The position numbers and the translations under genes were made by a program. A stretch of 64,000 nt of DNA, from positions 4,650,001-4,714,000 of the forward strand of contig NZ_CP025003.1 of assembly GCF_002812485.1 (NCBI RefSeq), written 5' to 3'. Of the stretch, positions 12,590 to 18,392 are shown piece by piece (positions within the stretch are counted from its first letter, which is position 1; every line of letters starts with the position of its first letter). The notes under the pieces were generated by a model. That model saw only the letters and a list, made by a program, of their open reading frames with translations. It was not told the origin of the DNA and did no database searches. This DNA is from Dickeya fangzhongdai. Its GTDB lineage: Bacteria > Pseudomonadota > Gammaproteobacteria > Enterobacterales > Enterobacteriaceae.

Positions 12590-12624
12590 CTCAAACCAAA
12601 CGGCCACGGATAACCGTGGCCGTT
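12590..12624 (-). terminator. Terminator of the thiol-adduct salvage operon
   Basis: A perfect 11-bp stem (AACGGCCACGG / CCGTGGCCGTT, loop ATAA) lies 27 bp beyond the last gene of the minus-strand cluster and is followed on that strand by TTGGTTTGAG. It separates this operon from glmZ. Confidence 0.7.
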
Positions 12625-12650
12625 GTCATGGATAGGATGCTGACGGGTAA

Positions 12651-13811
12651 TCAGGCGGTCTGCGACAACTGTTCCAGGCTCTGCTTCGCCAGCTGATACA
12701 GATAGTGCGCGGTGGGGAACAGCGCACTATCATCCACCCGGAATTTGGGGTGATGCAGCGCGTAAGGGCCGCCGGAGCCTACCATCATAAAGGTGCCCGG
12801 CAGCTTCTGCTGGTAGAACGCAAAATCTTCGCCGATGGGGCTGGCTTCGACGCGACGCGCCTCAAACCCTTCGTCATCAGCGACCTGCAGCGCAAAATCC
12901 ACCCAGCGCGGCGTGTTCACCACCGATGGCGGCCCGGCGTGCCAGATAAACTCGATTTCCGCGCCAAAGGTGCTGGCGATACCGGCCACAATCTGGCGGA
13001 AACGCTGTTCAATCAGGTCGCGTACCGCCTGACTGAAGGTACGCACCGTTCCTTCTACGTAGGCGGTATCCGGAATGACGTTCCAGGTGCTGCCGCTATG
13101 TACCTGAGTGATCGACACCACCGCATTATTATCGGACGGCACGGTGCGGCTAATAATGGTCTGCACCGCGGAAATCAGCTGCCCCAGAATAATGATCGGA
13201 TCATTACCTTCGTGCGGTTTGGCGGCGTGACAGCCTTTAGCGGCAATCTTGATTTCAAAACGGTCCACCCCGGCGGTCAGCGCGCCGTCTTTACCGCCAA
13301 TTACGCCGACCGGCAGCGTTGGGTCGTTATGAATGCCAAAAATAGCGGTCGCGCCGTCCAGCGCGCCGACTGCGATCACTTCCGGCGCACCCAGCCCGGT
13401 TTCTTCGGCCGCCTGAAACAGAATACGCACGGTACCTTTCAGCTGCGGCTCGATACGTTTGAGCAGAATCGCCGCACCCAGCGCCGCCGAAGAATGGAAA
13501 TCATGCCCGCAGGCGTGCATCACACCGGTATTTTTCGAACTGAATTCGACGCCGGACTCTTCTTCAATCGGCAGGGCGTCGATGTCGGATCGCACCACCA
13601 CCAGCGGGCCGTCCTGTAGACCGCCTACTTCCGCCACCAGGCCGGTTTTCAACGGCAGGTCAAGGATGCGAATCCCCTCTTTTTCCAGCACGGCGCGAAT
13701 TTTCCGCGTGGTTTCAAACTCCTGATTAGACAGCTCCGGATGCTGATGCAGATCGTGCCGGAACGCCTGAATAAACTGTGCCAACGGCTCATGCTGGGCA
13801 TGCACTTTCAT
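12651..13811 (-). CDS. M20-family N-acyl amino-acid amidohydrolase (deacetylase)
   Basis: Zinc-dependent amidohydrolase of the M20 / hippurate-hydrolase family, 386 residues. Metal and catalytic motifs are visible: RHDLHQHPELSNQE near 18-31, VVRSDIDALPI (72-82), MHACGHDFHSS (98-108, bridging Cys101-His103) and FQAAEETGLG (132-141, general-base Glu). It has no signal peptide, so it acts in the cytosol. It is the last gene of the six-gene cluster; in the related Bacillus subtilis yxe operon the equivalent YxeP removes an N-acetyl group from the sulfur product. The precise substrate here is inferred. Confidence 0.85.
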   Translation of the reverse strand: MKVHAQHEPLAQFIQAFRHDLHQHPELSNQEFETTRKIRAVLEKEGIRILDLPLKTGLVAEVGGLQDGPLVVVRSDIDALPIEEESGVEFSSKNTGVMHACGHDFHSSAALGAAILLKRIEPQLKGTVRILFQAAEETGLGAPEVIAVGALDGATAIFGIHNDPTLPVGVIGGKDGALTAGVDRFEIKIAAKGCHAAKPHEGNDPIIILGQLISAVQTIISRTVPSDNNAVVSITQVHSGSTWNVIPDTAYVEGTVRTFSQAVRDLIEQRFRQIVAGIASTFGAEIEFIWHAGPPSVVNTPRWVDFALQVADDEGFEARRVEASPIGEDFAFYQQKLPGTFMMVGSGGPYALHHPKFRVDDSALFPTAHYLYQLAKQSLEQLSQTA

Positions 13812-13891
13812 GTAAGGTCACTCCTCTTTTTTTCAGCCCTGTCTGACAGGGCGGCCCGACGAGTCGAGCCTGCAGGTGAATACGTTATCGA

Positions 13892-14653
13892 TCAGATATC
13901 GAACTCTGATGGTTCCTGAATGTTAGTCAGCTGTCGCAGGAAGCGGCGGGTCTGCGGGTTGTCGGAGAAACTGATCACTTTCTCCGCCGGCCCTTGTTCC
14001 ACGATGTGCCCGTCGGCCATGAAGATCACCCGGTCCGCCACTTCTTTGGCGAACTGCATCTCATGGGTCACGATCACCATGGTGGTGTTCTGCCCCGCCA
14101 GTTTCTGGATAACCTGCAGCACTTCATGCACGCGTTCCGGATCAAGCGCCGAGGTCGGCTCATCAAACAGGATCGCCTTCGGATCCACCGCCAGCGCACG
14201 AGCGATGCTGACACGCTGCTGTTGGCCGCCGGACAGCGTCACCGGGTACTGATGCGCCTGCGGCAACAGCCCCACCAGCTCCAGCAGCGACAGCCCAATC
14301 TCGTCCGCCTGCTTTTTCGGCATCTTCTTCACCACAATCAGGGCTTCGGTGATGTTTTCCAGCGCGGTCTTGTTCTTGAACAGGTTGTAATTCTGGAACA
14401 CCATCGCCGTCTGACGTCTGAGCGCATACTCTTCCTTGCCGGTATAACGGCTGGTATCCAGCGACTGATCGCCGATGGTAATGGTGCCGGACTCTGGCCT
14501 TTCCAGCAGATTCAGGCAACGCAACAGGGTGGACTTGCCTGAGCCGGACGGCCCGATGATCGCCACCACCTCGCCCTGGGCGATATCCAGACTGATATTG
14601 TTCAGCACCACCTGGTCGCCAAAACGTTTAGTCAGATTTTTTACGCTAATCAT
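13892..14653 (-). CDS. Amino-acid ABC transporter, ATP-binding subunit
   Basis: 253-residue ATPase of the polar amino-acid uptake family (YxeO / TcyC / GlnQ-like). Walker A GPSGSGKST is at 34-42, the Q-loop in VFQNYNLF near 86-92, signature LSGGQQQR at 140-147, Walker B ILFDEP at 161-166, and the switch His in VIVTHEM. It lies 9 bases after the permease gene. Cluster context points to uptake of a sulfur-containing amino-acid derivative. Confidence 0.93.
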   Translation of the reverse strand: MISVKNLTKRFGDQVVLNNISLDIAQGEVVAIIGPSGSGKSTLLRCLNLLERPESGTITIGDQSLDTSRYTGKEEYALRRQTAMVFQNYNLFKNKTALENITEALIVVKKMPKKQADEIGLSLLELVGLLPQAHQYPVTLSGGQQQRVSIARALAVDPKAILFDEPTSALDPERVHEVLQVIQKLAGQNTTMVIVTHEMQFAKEVADRVIFMADGHIVEQGPAEKVISFSDNPQTRRFLRQLTNIQEPSEFDI

Positions 14654-14662
14654 GTCGGCTCC

Positions 14663-15334
14663 TTAACGCTGCCGTGAATGGCTCAGTTTCTTCTCCAGTT
14701 GCGACTGCAACCAGGAGTAAACCATGATGAGCAGCCAGTAAATCAGCCCCACCACCAGGAAGGTTTCGAAGAAGCGCAGCGATTCGGCGGCGATCATCTT
14801 GCCTTCGGCAAACAGTTCCGAGACACCGAGCGCAAAGGCCACCGAGGTGTCTTTGATCAGCGAAATAAAGGTGTTGCCGGTAGCAGGCAGCGCATTGAGC
14901 ATCGCCTGCGGCAACACGATGCGGCGGTAAATCTGTGCCTTGTTCATCCCTACCGACAGGCCGGCTTCCGTTTGCCCGAAATCCACGGACGCCAGCGCCG
15001 CCCGGAAGATCTCCGCCATATACGCCGAGTTTTTCAGGCTAAAGCCGATAATCGCCGCCGTCATGGCGGATAGGCCGTTAAGCGACGGAAACAGCTGCGG
15101 CAACCCGAAATAGATGATGAACAACTGAACCAGCGATGGAATACCGCGAAACAGCGAGATATAGAGTTCCACCAGTTTCGTCACCACAACGAACCGGCTC
15201 TCGCGAACCAGCGCCAGCACCAGTCCCAGCACGATGGCAAACAGCATCGACACCACCGCCAGCAACAGCGTGGTGGGCAAGTACATCAACACCTGGGGAA
15301 AAACTTTCAGCAGGTAGGAAAGATCGATATTCAT
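14663..15334 (-). CDS. Amino-acid ABC transporter, permease subunit
   Basis: HisM/TcyB-type inner-membrane permease, 223 residues from the ATG at 15334 (MNIDLSYLLKVFPQ). A TTG 11 codons earlier is less likely. There are about five membrane spans, and the EAA-type loop VDFGQTEAGLSVGMNKAQIYRRIVLPQA contacts the ATPase. A single permease gene implies a homodimer, as in cystine and YxeN-type systems. Confidence 0.92.
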   Translation of the reverse strand: MNIDLSYLLKVFPQVLMYLPTTLLLAVVSMLFAIVLGLVLALVRESRFVVVTKLVELYISLFRGIPSLVQLFIIYFGLPQLFPSLNGLSAMTAAIIGFSLKNSAYMAEIFRAALASVDFGQTEAGLSVGMNKAQIYRRIVLPQAMLNALPATGNTFISLIKDTSVAFALGVSELFAEGKMIAAESLRFFETFLVVGLIYWLLIMVYSWLQSQLEKKLSHSRQR

Positions 15335-15406
15335 GGGCCATACCATTAACACTGACGCCAGCCGCAAATCAGGCTGGCGTCACAGGAGTTGAGCGAGCAG
15401 GCAGGG

Positions 15407-16180
15407 TTATTTACCCGCCGTAATGTCCTCGCCGAAATATTTGACGGACAGGGCTTTCAGTCGGCCATCACTGCGCATTTTGTTCAGTTCGTCATCAAAC
15501 TTCTTACGCAGTTCGTCGCCTTTCTGATCTTTATGGAACGGGAACCCAACCTGCTCCACCACCAGCGGCTCACCCACCAGCTTGAACGGCAGGTTGCGCT
15601 TGTTGATTTCCGCCAGCAGGATCGGGCGGGAGTTGATGTAGCCTTCAACGCGTTTGGCCAGCGCATCGCTCATGGCGCCATCGCGGGTTTCATAGGTACG
15701 AATGTTGACGCTGCCGTCGGCAAAGGCTTTTTTCAGGTTGTTGACGTGGTTGGAACCCAACACGCCCGCCACGGTTTTGCCTTTCAGGTCATCCAGCGTA
15801 TTGATGTTGGCGTTGTCTTTATGCGTGACGATCTGGCTGCCGTAGTAGCTGTATGGCTGGGAGAAGCTGTACTTCTCCTGGCGCGCCGGGGTAATCGCCA
15901 CCACGTTGGCGATGGTGTCCAGCTTGCTGGCTTCCAGTTGCCCCATCAGGCCGCTGAAATCCGCCGTCACCCATTCAACCTTATAATTCAGATCCTTGGC
16001 GATGGTTTCCGCTACTTCCACATCAAACCCGACCAGCTTGTTGTCCTGTTTGAACGAACTCGGGTAGCTCTGCCCGGTGGCGCCGATGCGCAGCACCTTC
16101 TCACCGCTGTTCTGAGAATCGCAACCTGCCGCCAGAATGACCGCAGACAAAGCTAATACAGGGAGGATAATTTTTTTCAT
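15407..16180 (-). CDS. Amino-acid ABC transporter, substrate-binding lipoprotein
   Basis: Type II periplasmic binding protein of family 3, 257 residues from MKKIILPVLALSAVILAAGC; the lipobox cysteine is residue 20, so it is lipid-anchored. The mature part has LRIGATGQSYPSSF and LVGFDVEVAETIAKDL, the conserved family 3 signature region. It resembles YxeM/TcyJ-type binders. Ligand identity cannot be read from sequence; the neighbouring lyase suggests S-(2-succino)cysteine or a similar adduct. Confidence 0.9.
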   Translation of the reverse strand: MKKIILPVLALSAVILAAGCDSQNSGEKVLRIGATGQSYPSSFKQDNKLVGFDVEVAETIAKDLNYKVEWVTADFSGLMGQLEASKLDTIANVVAITPARQEKYSFSQPYSYYGSQIVTHKDNANINTLDDLKGKTVAGVLGSNHVNNLKKAFADGSVNIRTYETRDGAMSDALAKRVEGYINSRPILLAEINKRNLPFKLVGEPLVVEQVGFPFHKDQKGDELRKKFDDELNKMRSDGRLKALSVKYFGEDITAGK

Positions 16181-16199
16181 AGTCATCGAATAACGCCTC

Positions 16200-16724
16200 T
16201 TAGGGGTGTTTCTTTTCCCAGTGATGATAAAGGTCCTGATCCAGGACTTTTCGCATGTAAATCGTGAGGTGTCCTTTCCCTAAATCCGCCTGGCCGACTT
16301 CCTGAAAGCCATATTTTCGGTACATATCCAGCAACCAGGGATGCTGTTTGGCGGTGCCCAGCGTCACGGCGGGCGCTTTTAACTGCTCTTGCAGCACCGC
16401 CTGCTCCAGCCAGTCCAGCATCTGTTTGCCCAGTCCCTGTTGTTTGAAGTCCGGATGAGTGGCGAACCAACCGATGTGCGGCAACCCGTACGGACCGGGA
16501 TTCGGCCCCCACGGATAACGAATGGTGACCGACGCGGCCAGACGCCCGTCTTTCTCCATCACATACACGCCGTTGCTGCGCAGATGACGGCGCACCATGT
16601 CGATATCGGCGTAGGCGGCGTCAAACTTGATGCCCAGCTCACGCACCGGCGCATAAGCGGCCAGCGCCAGCGCCAGAAACGCTTCATCGTCCGCAGACGT
16701 AGCCTGACGAAATACGGTACTCAT
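16200..16724 (-). CDS. GNAT-family N-acetyltransferase of the salvage cluster
   Basis: 174 residues from the ATG at 16724, which has a GGGAG ribosome site; a GTG at 16739 overlapping the lyase stop is the alternative. The acetyl-CoA-binding motif appears as HPDFKQQGLGKQMLDWLEQAV (Q/R-x-x-G-x-G/A type) and the C-terminal part as YRKYGFQEVG. In the Bacillus yxe and ytm sulfur operons a GNAT enzyme (SnaA/SnaB) N-acetylates the imported thiol adduct; by position this is the counterpart. Substrate is inferred. Confidence 0.83.
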   Translation of the reverse strand: MSTVFRQATSADDEAFLALALAAYAPVRELGIKFDAAYADIDMVRRHLRSNGVYVMEKDGRLAASVTIRYPWGPNPGPYGLPHIGWFATHPDFKQQGLGKQMLDWLEQAVLQEQLKAPAVTLGTAKQHPWLLDMYRKYGFQEVGQADLGKGHLTIYMRKVLDQDLYHHWEKKHP

Positions 16725-16735
16725 GGCGTCTCCCG

Positions 16736-18100
16736 TCACTCGGCCAGCAGGCCGGTGCCATCCGCGTACCGGATAACCTCATCGACTTTCTGCGGCGCGC
16801 TGCCGACATAGTTCGCCGGATCCAGCCAGGCATCCAGCGCATCCGCCGTCAGGTGCTGCGACAGAACCGGATGCTCCAGCAGCAGCGCTTTGAACTCGCG
16901 GTTCTGCTCAAATGCCGCCATTGAGCACTCGTACACCAGGTGATGGGCCGTCTGCTTGCCGAGCAGCTTGCCGATTTCAAACATCACCTTTTCCGACAGC
17001 AACAGGCCGTTTTGCAAATCAAGATTGGCGCGCATCTGCTTTTCGTTCACCGACATACCGCGCAGGATGCCAAGCGCGTTCTGCAACTGCGCCGACAGAT
17101 AGATGTTGATTTCCGGCAACGCGATCCACTCCGCACGCCAGCTCATGGCGTCACGCTCGTGTTCGACTTTCATCGATTCATGGATCAGAGCGGCGCTCTT
17201 GAACAGCGGCGCCGTCAGGCTGGCCAGCCCTTCCAGCGCGGCCGGATTGCGCTTGTGCGGCATGGTGGTGGAACCGATCTTCCCTTCGGAGAACGGTTCT
17301 TCGATTTCGTTGATTTCGGTACGCATCAGGTTGTACAGCTCGTTGCCGATCTTACCGAGCGTACCGCTGATCAGCACCGCCACCGACGCGTATTCCGAGA
17401 AACGGTCACGGGCGGACTGCCAGCCGATATTCGGGGTATTCAGACCCAGACGGGTCAGGGTGTGGCGTTCGATTTCCGGCCCCAGCTCGCCAAAAGAGGC
17501 GTAGGTACCGATGGCGCCGTTGATGTTGCCTACCAACACCCGATCGCGGATTTCATTCAGGCGTTGCAGGTGGCGCACAAACTCGTCCAGCCATACCGCC
17601 AGCTTGAAACCAAAGGTGGTCGGCAACGCCTGCATGCCGTGGGTACGACCGGTCATCAGCGTATGCTGGTGTTTCTTCGCCAGTCGTTTCAGTTCGATAG
17701 CCACCAGACGGGTGTCGCGCACCACAATGTCGAATGCCTGACGCAGCTGCAATACCGTAGCGGTATCCACCACATCCTGCGTGGTTACGCCGTAATGGAT
17801 GTATTCGCCGGCTTCGCCGCACTGTTTCTGGATGGCGGCGATGGTCGGCATCAGGGAATGCTTCATGCGCACCGCATCCTGGGCGATCTCTTCAATATTC
17901 AGTGCGCTGGCGTTGGCGTGGGAAGCAATGGTGCTGGCCGCGTCCTGCGGGATGACACCCAGATCGCCTTCTGCCAGCGCCAACGCGATTTCCACGTCAA
18001 CCTGGCGGGTCAGGCGATTCTGCTCTGACCATACGGCGCGCATTTCTGGTGTGCCAAAGTTATTTCCAATAAGAAGAAAATCAATCAGATGTGATGCCAT
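16736..18100 (-). CDS. Fumarase/adenylosuccinate-lyase superfamily lyase, probable S-(2-succino) lyase
   Basis: 454-residue member of the aspartase/fumarase/adenylosuccinate lyase superfamily, whose enzymes release fumarate by beta-elimination. Superfamily regions are IHYGVTTQDVVDTA (101-114), TGRTHGMQALPTTFGFKLA (150-168) and the signature GSTTMPHKRNP (276-286) on the catalytic flexible loop. It is not housekeeping PurB, which begins differently (MELSSLTAVSPVDGRY). First gene of a cluster with N-acetyltransferase, amino-acid ABC importer and deacetylase, where the Bacillus operon has the flavin monooxygenase YxeK. I infer cleavage of a succinated thiol to fumarate plus (N-acetyl)cysteine. 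Confidence 0.8.
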   Translation of the reverse strand: MASHLIDFLLIGNNFGTPEMRAVWSEQNRLTRQVDVEIALALAEGDLGVIPQDAASTIASHANASALNIEEIAQDAVRMKHSLMPTIAAIQKQCGEAGEYIHYGVTTQDVVDTATVLQLRQAFDIVVRDTRLVAIELKRLAKKHQHTLMTGRTHGMQALPTTFGFKLAVWLDEFVRHLQRLNEIRDRVLVGNINGAIGTYASFGELGPEIERHTLTRLGLNTPNIGWQSARDRFSEYASVAVLISGTLGKIGNELYNLMRTEINEIEEPFSEGKIGSTTMPHKRNPAALEGLASLTAPLFKSAALIHESMKVEHERDAMSWRAEWIALPEINIYLSAQLQNALGILRGMSVNEKQMRANLDLQNGLLLSEKVMFEIGKLLGKQTAHHLVYECSMAAFEQNREFKALLLEHPVLSQHLTADALDAWLDPANYVGSAPQKVDEVIRYADGTGLLAE

Positions 18101-18392
18101 AACTCACTCGTTTACATTGTAATAATGGGGGAAAGAGAGGCGGGTCAAGACGACGCTGTTGTTTGTTGGCGACTATATCACTGGCGATATTCCCGCCTAT
18201 ATACCCGATCGATCTAAGATATTCTTTATTGTTTTATGATTTCGCTCACAATTACTTCATCCGAAACGATGCAATCCTTCTAATTTCTGTCGGGTTACTA
18301 TTTAGGCTGTCTTGTACCCAATGCAGATGTACAAACTGCGTCACTCGCATACGGCACGGTATAGGGCCGTGGTTCCGGCGGATGGCTACGGT
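18101..18392. other. Upstream region of the salvage cluster, no gene seen
   Basis: AT-rich stretch between the lyase start and the terminator of the SnoaL-like gene. A weak GAGTGAG ribosome site precedes the lyase ATG. The promoter and operators of the six-gene operon should lie here, but I cannot name a regulator site with confidence. Small frames on the plus strand lack ribosome sites. Confidence 0.5.

Follow-up and report, generated by a model that had tools for sequence, protein, structure and literature searches.

S-(2-succino) lyase (2SL) was characterised, with kinetics, from Dickeya dadantii DSM 18020 (E0SKP1) and Enterococcus italicus DSM 15952 (E6LDH5), and each of the two enzymes complemented a Bacillus subtilis yxeK mutant (PMC9706529). 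According to the same report, 2SL is present in 27 of 102 yxe loci, in three of them alongside yxeK, and the D. dadantii enzyme cleaves N-acetyl-S-(2-succino)cysteine (N-acetyl-2SC, also 2SNAC) to fumarate and N-acetylcysteine, the equilibrium constant of this cleavage being 0.0046. The kcat/Km of the D. dadantii enzyme is given there as 0.29 per mM per s for N-acetyl-2SC versus 0.0049 for S-(2-succino)cysteine (2SC), and the authors suggest that the preference for the acetylated substrate stops the reversible 2SL from depleting free cysteine and fumarate (PMC9706529). B. subtilis ScmP (formerly YxeP) was reported to deacetylate N-acetylcysteine, not N-acetyl-2SC (PMC12757645). We analyzed a stretch of 64,000 nucleotides of the Dickeya fangzhongdai contig NZ_CP025003.1 (positions 4,650,001 to 4,714,000; hereafter the window), which carries a six-gene operon encoding a lyase of this superfamily, a GNAT acetyltransferase, an amino-acid type ABC transporter and an M20 family deacetylase.

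We conclude that this operon very probably serves the salvage of 2SC by import, acetylation, lyase cleavage and deacetylation. The ABC transporter would import 2SC, the GNAT protein would acetylate it to N-acetyl-2SC, 2SL would split N-acetyl-2SC without oxygen into fumarate and N-acetylcysteine, and the M20 protein would deacetylate N-acetylcysteine to cysteine. Import, acetylation and deacetylation are proposed for Dickeya from homology to the yxe route, while the lyase step has been published for the enzyme of a congener. The initial annotation of this DNA had mentioned a lyase-based route, including one from Dickeya, and such a route exists, with both the D. dadantii and the E. italicus 2SL assayed; the oxygen-independent formation of fumarate and N-acetylcysteine that it expected of the lyase is published for the D. 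dadantii enzyme (PMC9706529). It had also asked whether the N-acetylated adduct is the true substrate, and this point is answered because N-acetyl-2SC is strongly preferred over 2SC in the kinetics cited above. The six-gene operon has already been described in print, and what we add is a predicted role for yxeQ. The MmgE/PrpD family protein encoded by the yxeQ-type gene (hereafter Q) is predicted to epimerise the succinyl carbon of 2SC or N-acetyl-2SC, letting both diastereomers be degraded, a reading towards which we lean slightly.

The window lyase belongs to lyase class I by its Pfam domains and carries the GSTTMPHKRNP signature, as expected of 2SL. It is 93-99% identical to the lyases of eight other genomes of the genus (the nearest named one among the matches listed is from Dickeya undicola, 99%) and 62% identical over the full length to the lyase of E. 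italicus DSM 15952 (L049). A phylogenetic comparison with characterised 2SL, PurB and argininosuccinate lyase (ArgH) had been proposed as a check of the lyase reading, and its result agrees with that reading. The tree has 68 rows; 56 of them, including the window lyase and that of E. italicus DSM 15952, form one group (support 89), and outside this group fall the ArgH and PurB of the same genome, the lyases of other genomes at 39-45% identity, and the lyase of L059. The tree leaves out L054 and L077 (shorter than 380 aa) and L052, L058, L060 and L061 (no usable lyase open reading frame). The locus is of the yxe type, with at least three yxe components, and is without yxeK, as judged by a match to the NtaA/DmoA-type family, which is the arrangement expected of a 2SL locus. 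The sole NtaA/DmoA-type monooxygenase over the cut-off in the genome is encoded at 4.376 Mb among transporter-like neighbours, with no directly adjacent GNAT or M20 gene and with two M20-family matches (27-29% identity) at a distance of 9-12 kb.

Public records label such lyases adenylosuccinate lyase, and the window lyase passes the cut-off of the TIGR00928 purB model (366.1 versus 326.2 bits), which fits that name. That the protein is an adenylosuccinate lyase or a cycloisomerase, in a cluster with some other role, is nevertheless extremely improbable. That cut-off is also exceeded by the lyase from the assayed E. italicus strain (367.7 bits), and the two lyases have near-equal scores across the NCBI family models. 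A separate PurB is encoded in the genome (C1:2700210); it is 23-25% identical to the window lyase and reaches 796.5 bits on NF006764, versus 99.8 bits for the window lyase. The window lyase does not group with this PurB, and stands in the 2SL group of the tree and in a yxe gene context. The PurB or cycloisomerase identity was rejected on the separate PurB, the tree and the model scores. Two points weigh against the salvage function that we prefer: the role of the window lyase rests on assayed relatives, none of which is a protein of the window itself, and its closeness to D. dadantii E0SKP1 is presumed from the range of identities within the genus. The value of the operon lies in providing a checked example, together with a warning that the records call its lyase an adenylosuccinate lyase.

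A second lyase was observed outside the window (L002, C1:19360-20691), 40% identical to the window lyase and matched at E 1e-100 or better in two of the nine genus genomes; no NCBIfam model passes its cut-off on this protein. Its neighbours, both named by eye, are genes for a transporter-like membrane protein of 475 aa and for a GntR-like regulator.

We compared 57 related loci, with gene order counted by hand. A GNAT match stands next after the lyase in 56 of them, and all six genes are matched in the order of the window in 31 (L020 and L021 have one gene matching in pieces). In four further loci, from Pasteurellaceae, the set is complete but a single additional gene separates the ATPase and M20 genes. 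The loci with this order extend from Enterobacterales to Enterococcus. This conservation of order across the 57 loci led us to reject a chance cluster. In Gilliamella and other Orbaceae (L023, L028, L030, L031, L033, L035, L038-L040, L042) the lyase, GNAT and transporter genes are kept, and the cluster shows no M20 match. Several loci (L006:7075-7809, L008, L017-L021, L057) have, upstream on the opposite strand, an additional gene for a solute-binding protein that is 59-61% identical to that of the operon.

The Q gene, which we take to be of the yxeQ type, is absent from the window operon and was detected in the fetched stretch of 28 of the 57 related loci, mostly adjoining the cluster; yxeQ itself is marked as 'unknown function' in PMC9706529. 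The 29 loci without Q comprise 22 from Dickeya, Pectobacterium, Brenneria, Samsonia and Symbiopectobacterium, three from Pantoea, one metagenome bin, and L058 (cut by a contig end), L059 and L060 (both poor matches). The idea that Dickeya has no Q was rejected, an unlinked copy being present in all nine genus genomes. In the window genome this copy is located at C1:4181061-4182434, 485,678 bases from the lyase gene.

One set of 391 genomes of the family was searched for both the lyase and Q, the 2SL class being cut by hand at no less than 70% identity and 16 genomes with lyase matches of 43-45% being kept apart as a contrast. Q was found in 24 of the 25 2SL genomes versus 16 of the 366 others (12 of 13 versus 9 of 141 when counted by genus), and in none of the 16 contrast genomes. 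The Fisher value for this co-occurrence, about 1e-26, was obtained from genome lists and genus counts typed from tables; it ignores shared descent and overstates the case because the genomes of one clade are not independent. Q occurs with no 2SL match in 16 genomes; in 14 of these it lies beside an NtaA/DmoA-type monooxygenase gene, and ten of these 14 loci also have both GNAT and M20 matches. One of the 14 (G208) seems to be the same as L061, which has a lyase fragment of 37% identity, and this genome may hold a broken lyase. The best solved-structure matches of the monooxygenase beside Q are MoxC/YtnJ.

In the loci L133-L147 except L138, from other Enterobacterales, Q and an NtaA/DmoA-type monooxygenase are often accompanied by an iron-type alcohol dehydrogenase homologue, GNAT, M20 and another ABC transporter. 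A malate/L-lactate dehydrogenase gene is also present at L134 and a molybdopterin oxidoreductase gene at L137.

The natural substrate might be another adduct of a thiol with a 1,4-dicarboxylate, such as itaconate- or maleate-derived cysteine, with 2SC one of several. This would be in line with the promiscuity of 2SL for small thiols (PMC9706529), and the MoxC/YtnJ-like monooxygenase and the alcohol dehydrogenase homologue in many Q clusters would fit a wider S-alkylcysteine salvage, as would the molybdopterin oxidoreductase gene near Q at L137, the sole locus checked for it. We consider such a substrate improbable: the best tested substrate of both 2SL enzymes was N-acetylcysteine or 2SNAC (PMC9706529), and no other adduct has evidence in this analysis. 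The preferred reading of Q as an epimerase of 2SC or N-acetyl-2SC was further examined by phylogeny and active-site comparison.

Three short MmgE/PrpD pieces were dropped before the alignment and three duplicate rows before the Q tree. The 16 unlinked (solo) Q rows of Dickeya and its kin form one group (support 97) inside a clade with 100% support, whose 26 other rows all adjoin the lyase cluster, the monooxygenase, or both; the solo group is placed beside three monooxygenase-linked rows (support 88). We infer that solo Q left such a cluster; the tree itself does not show which way the change went. Support is 89 for the Q group and 93 for its union with iminodisuccinate (IDS) epimerase, and the one cis-aconitate decarboxylase chain, on a long branch for which the program gave a warning, falls outside Q and IDS epimerase.

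The residues aligned with IDS epimerase H85, D88, the Arg of RGHP, H99, Y145, H150 and K198 are conserved in every Q row. The eighth column examined is the His of KPxH; five rows differ there, and Dickeya and most others retain it. Over these eight columns the Dickeya Q corresponds to IDS epimerase in family (MmgE/PrpD), in the His99/Tyr145 pair and in the dicarboxylate-binding residues. For the Dickeya Q and the E. italicus Q alike, the top solved match is the B. subtilis 'IRG1' structure (7bra), which the tree places with the Q rows of Firmicutes; it is probably YxeQ itself. Its site residues were reported to be completely conserved with IDS epimerase, while mammalian IRG1 shares most of them but not the Tyr of the two-base pair (PMC7347537).

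The neighbourhood of solo Q suggests another possibility. Q adjoins acnB in seven of the nine genus genomes (acnB being recognised by its aconitase domains in G001 and by start and length in the others), and a gene named by eye as lpdA is on the other side of Q in several genomes. In the window genome and in G003, the genes beside Q are not acnB but those for an AraC protein and a TonB receptor. Regulation of solo Q by this AraC protein is doubtful, because the AraC gene is divergent to the TonB receptor gene in the window genome and no AraC-sized gene lies between Q and acnB in the open reading frame lists of G001, G002 and G004-G008. The position by acnB could suggest that the unlinked Dickeya Q serves citrate or aconitate metabolism, with Dickeya using one 2SC diastereomer or the lyase taking both, and two genomes (G030 and G266) that retain solo Q with no 2SL match would agree with this. 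We regard it as rather unlikely, considering that solo Q lies within the 100% supported clade of cluster- or monooxygenase-linked rows, and that Q agrees with IDS epimerase at eight of eight columns, whereas at the Arg and the Tyr the decarboxylase chain shows a gap and a Met, respectively.

Thiol addition to fumarate creates a new stereocentre. Among the metabolites common to the lyase and monooxygenase routes, a 1,4-dicarboxylate occurs in 2SC and N-acetyl-2SC only, and this is the substructure common to the known MmgE/PrpD substrates (PMC12290011). Because of this 1,4-dicarboxylate and the new stereocentre, an epimerase agrees with the chemistry of the family, with the site residues and with the occurrence of Q next to two unrelated breakdown enzymes. 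On balance, if by modest preference, we suggest that the yxeQ-type protein supplies the fourth enzyme so far missing from the lyase route and from the monooxygenase route, and that Dickeya and its kin keep a relocated unlinked copy, which adjoins acnB in most genomes of the genus. In this proposal the reaction and its substrate are predicted, the monooxygenase beside Q would act on the same adduct, and the Dickeya Q would share the job of the linked copies. The lyase or the monooxygenase is expected to prefer one form of a spontaneous adduct; if the prediction is true, an epimerase would account for the clearance of the damage product in both of its halves and for one gene travelling with two unrelated enzymes, and would give a function to a protein with a solved structure. 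No report of an epimerase function for yxeQ was found among the titles, abstract openings and passages of the open-access literature. On the stereochemistry of 2SC, term searches of PMC8657666, PMC11820211 and PMC7068737 yielded nothing of use except that PMC11820211 mentions possible isomers.

Several observations weigh against the proposed epimerase role, in addition to the neighbourhood of acnB. Many of the 24 genomes with both Q and 2SL are not independent, the lyase and Q being mostly co-inherited within a clade. The correspondence is also incomplete: G111 has 2SL and no Q match (its assembly is 91% complete), G362 and G418 have a whole 2SL match with an incomplete Q match, and G030 and G266 have the solo Q mentioned above. 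The monooxygenase beside Q may be an enzyme other than the 2SNAC monooxygenase (YxeK). IDS epimerase stands on a long branch, and its support of 93 comes from a quick search. K266, a known site residue, is outside the eight columns at which the Dickeya Q matches IDS epimerase, and the Tyr of the two-base pair is also found in other MmgE/PrpD proteins.

Open reading frame calls and Pfam matches give six minus-strand genes in the order lyase, GNAT, solute-binding protein, permease, ATPase and M20, spanning 18100 down to 12651, with intergenic gaps of 11, 13, 72, 9 and 80 bases along the operon (Table 1). The gene types, the strand and the close spacing given by the initial annotation were confirmed. 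It had also described a shared 3' terminator; a stem is indeed found at 12617-12600, but it is weak evidence alone because of its poor T tail and because the terminator scan gave 15 such sites in 8 kb versus a mean of 9.1 in shuffles.

Table 1. Features of the operon region in the window, with predicted roles named after the yxe operon
Feature	Positions	Strand	Basis
Probable S-(2-succino) lyase (2SL), 454 aa, fumarase/PurB superfamily	16736..18100	-	Pfam Lyase_1 and ADSL_C (PF00206, PF10397), tree
GNAT acetyltransferase, 174 aa from ATG, putative YxeL role (2SC to N-acetyl-2SC)	16200..16724	-	Acetyltransf_1; role proposed from the yxe operon
Amino-acid type solute-binding protein, lipoprotein-like start, putative YxeM role	15407..16186	-	SBP_bac_3
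ABC transporter permease, putative YxeN role	14663..15334	-	BPD_transp_1
ABC transporter ATPase, putative YxeO role	13892..14653	-	ABC_tran
M20 family deacetylase, putative YxeP role (N-acetylcysteine to cysteine)	12651..13811	-	Peptidase_M20 and M20_dimer
Terminator-like stem-loop, poor T tail, 33 bases past the last stop codon	12600..12617	-	Terminator scan
Conserved block upstream of the lyase gene	18150..18250, approximate	-	Alignment of 17 upstream regions

The longest GNAT frame begins with a GTG start at 16739, overlapping the lyase gene, and the ATG at 16724 is the more likely start. The GNAT protein gave a single match in the whole genome at E 0.001 or better and none at E 0.001 in the solved-structure set; the query in the structure, locus and genome searches had one additional residue ahead of the start. 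The nearest NCBIfam model of the solute-binding protein is the cystine-binding protein, with a score under the cut-off of that model. The top solved-structure match of the M20 protein is B. subtilis YxeP (1ysj, E 4.9e-119).

The block upstream of the lyase is kept genus-wide and the sequence farther upstream aligns poorly, in an alignment of 17 regions that includes two pairs of identical copies of one region; the block is possibly the promoter and operator. A palindrome, GATCTAAGATAGATC, is present in the upstream block of three Pectobacterium regions, and the window has the related AGATCGATC.

The structure closest to Q, 7bra, was named cis-aconitate decarboxylase (PMC7347537), whereas according to PMC12290011 decarboxylase activity lacks evidence and the protein probably has another function. 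IDS epimerase (2hp0/2hp3) is like Q in its MmgE/PrpD family, in the eight site columns including the His/Tyr pair and in its substituted-succinyl substrate; it is unlike Q in that the similarity is distant (E 2.2e-42) and the branch separate, and in that the predicted substrate of Q is a thioether, not an amine.

As to the operon, the published 2SL loci of D. dadantii, a species of the same genus, and of E. italicus have the same set of transporter, GNAT, 2SL and M20 genes (PMC9706529), and the window operon differs from the E. italicus locus by the absence of the lyase-adjacent yxeQ-type gene. Acetylation, breakdown and deacetylation are common to the window operon and the B. subtilis yxe/scm operon, the M20 protein having been compared with YxeP and the other roles assigned by family or from print. 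The window operon is without yxeQ, unlike the B. subtilis operon, and while YxeK of B. subtilis is an oxygen-dependent monooxygenase giving oxaloacetate, the window operon has in its place a lyase giving fumarate.

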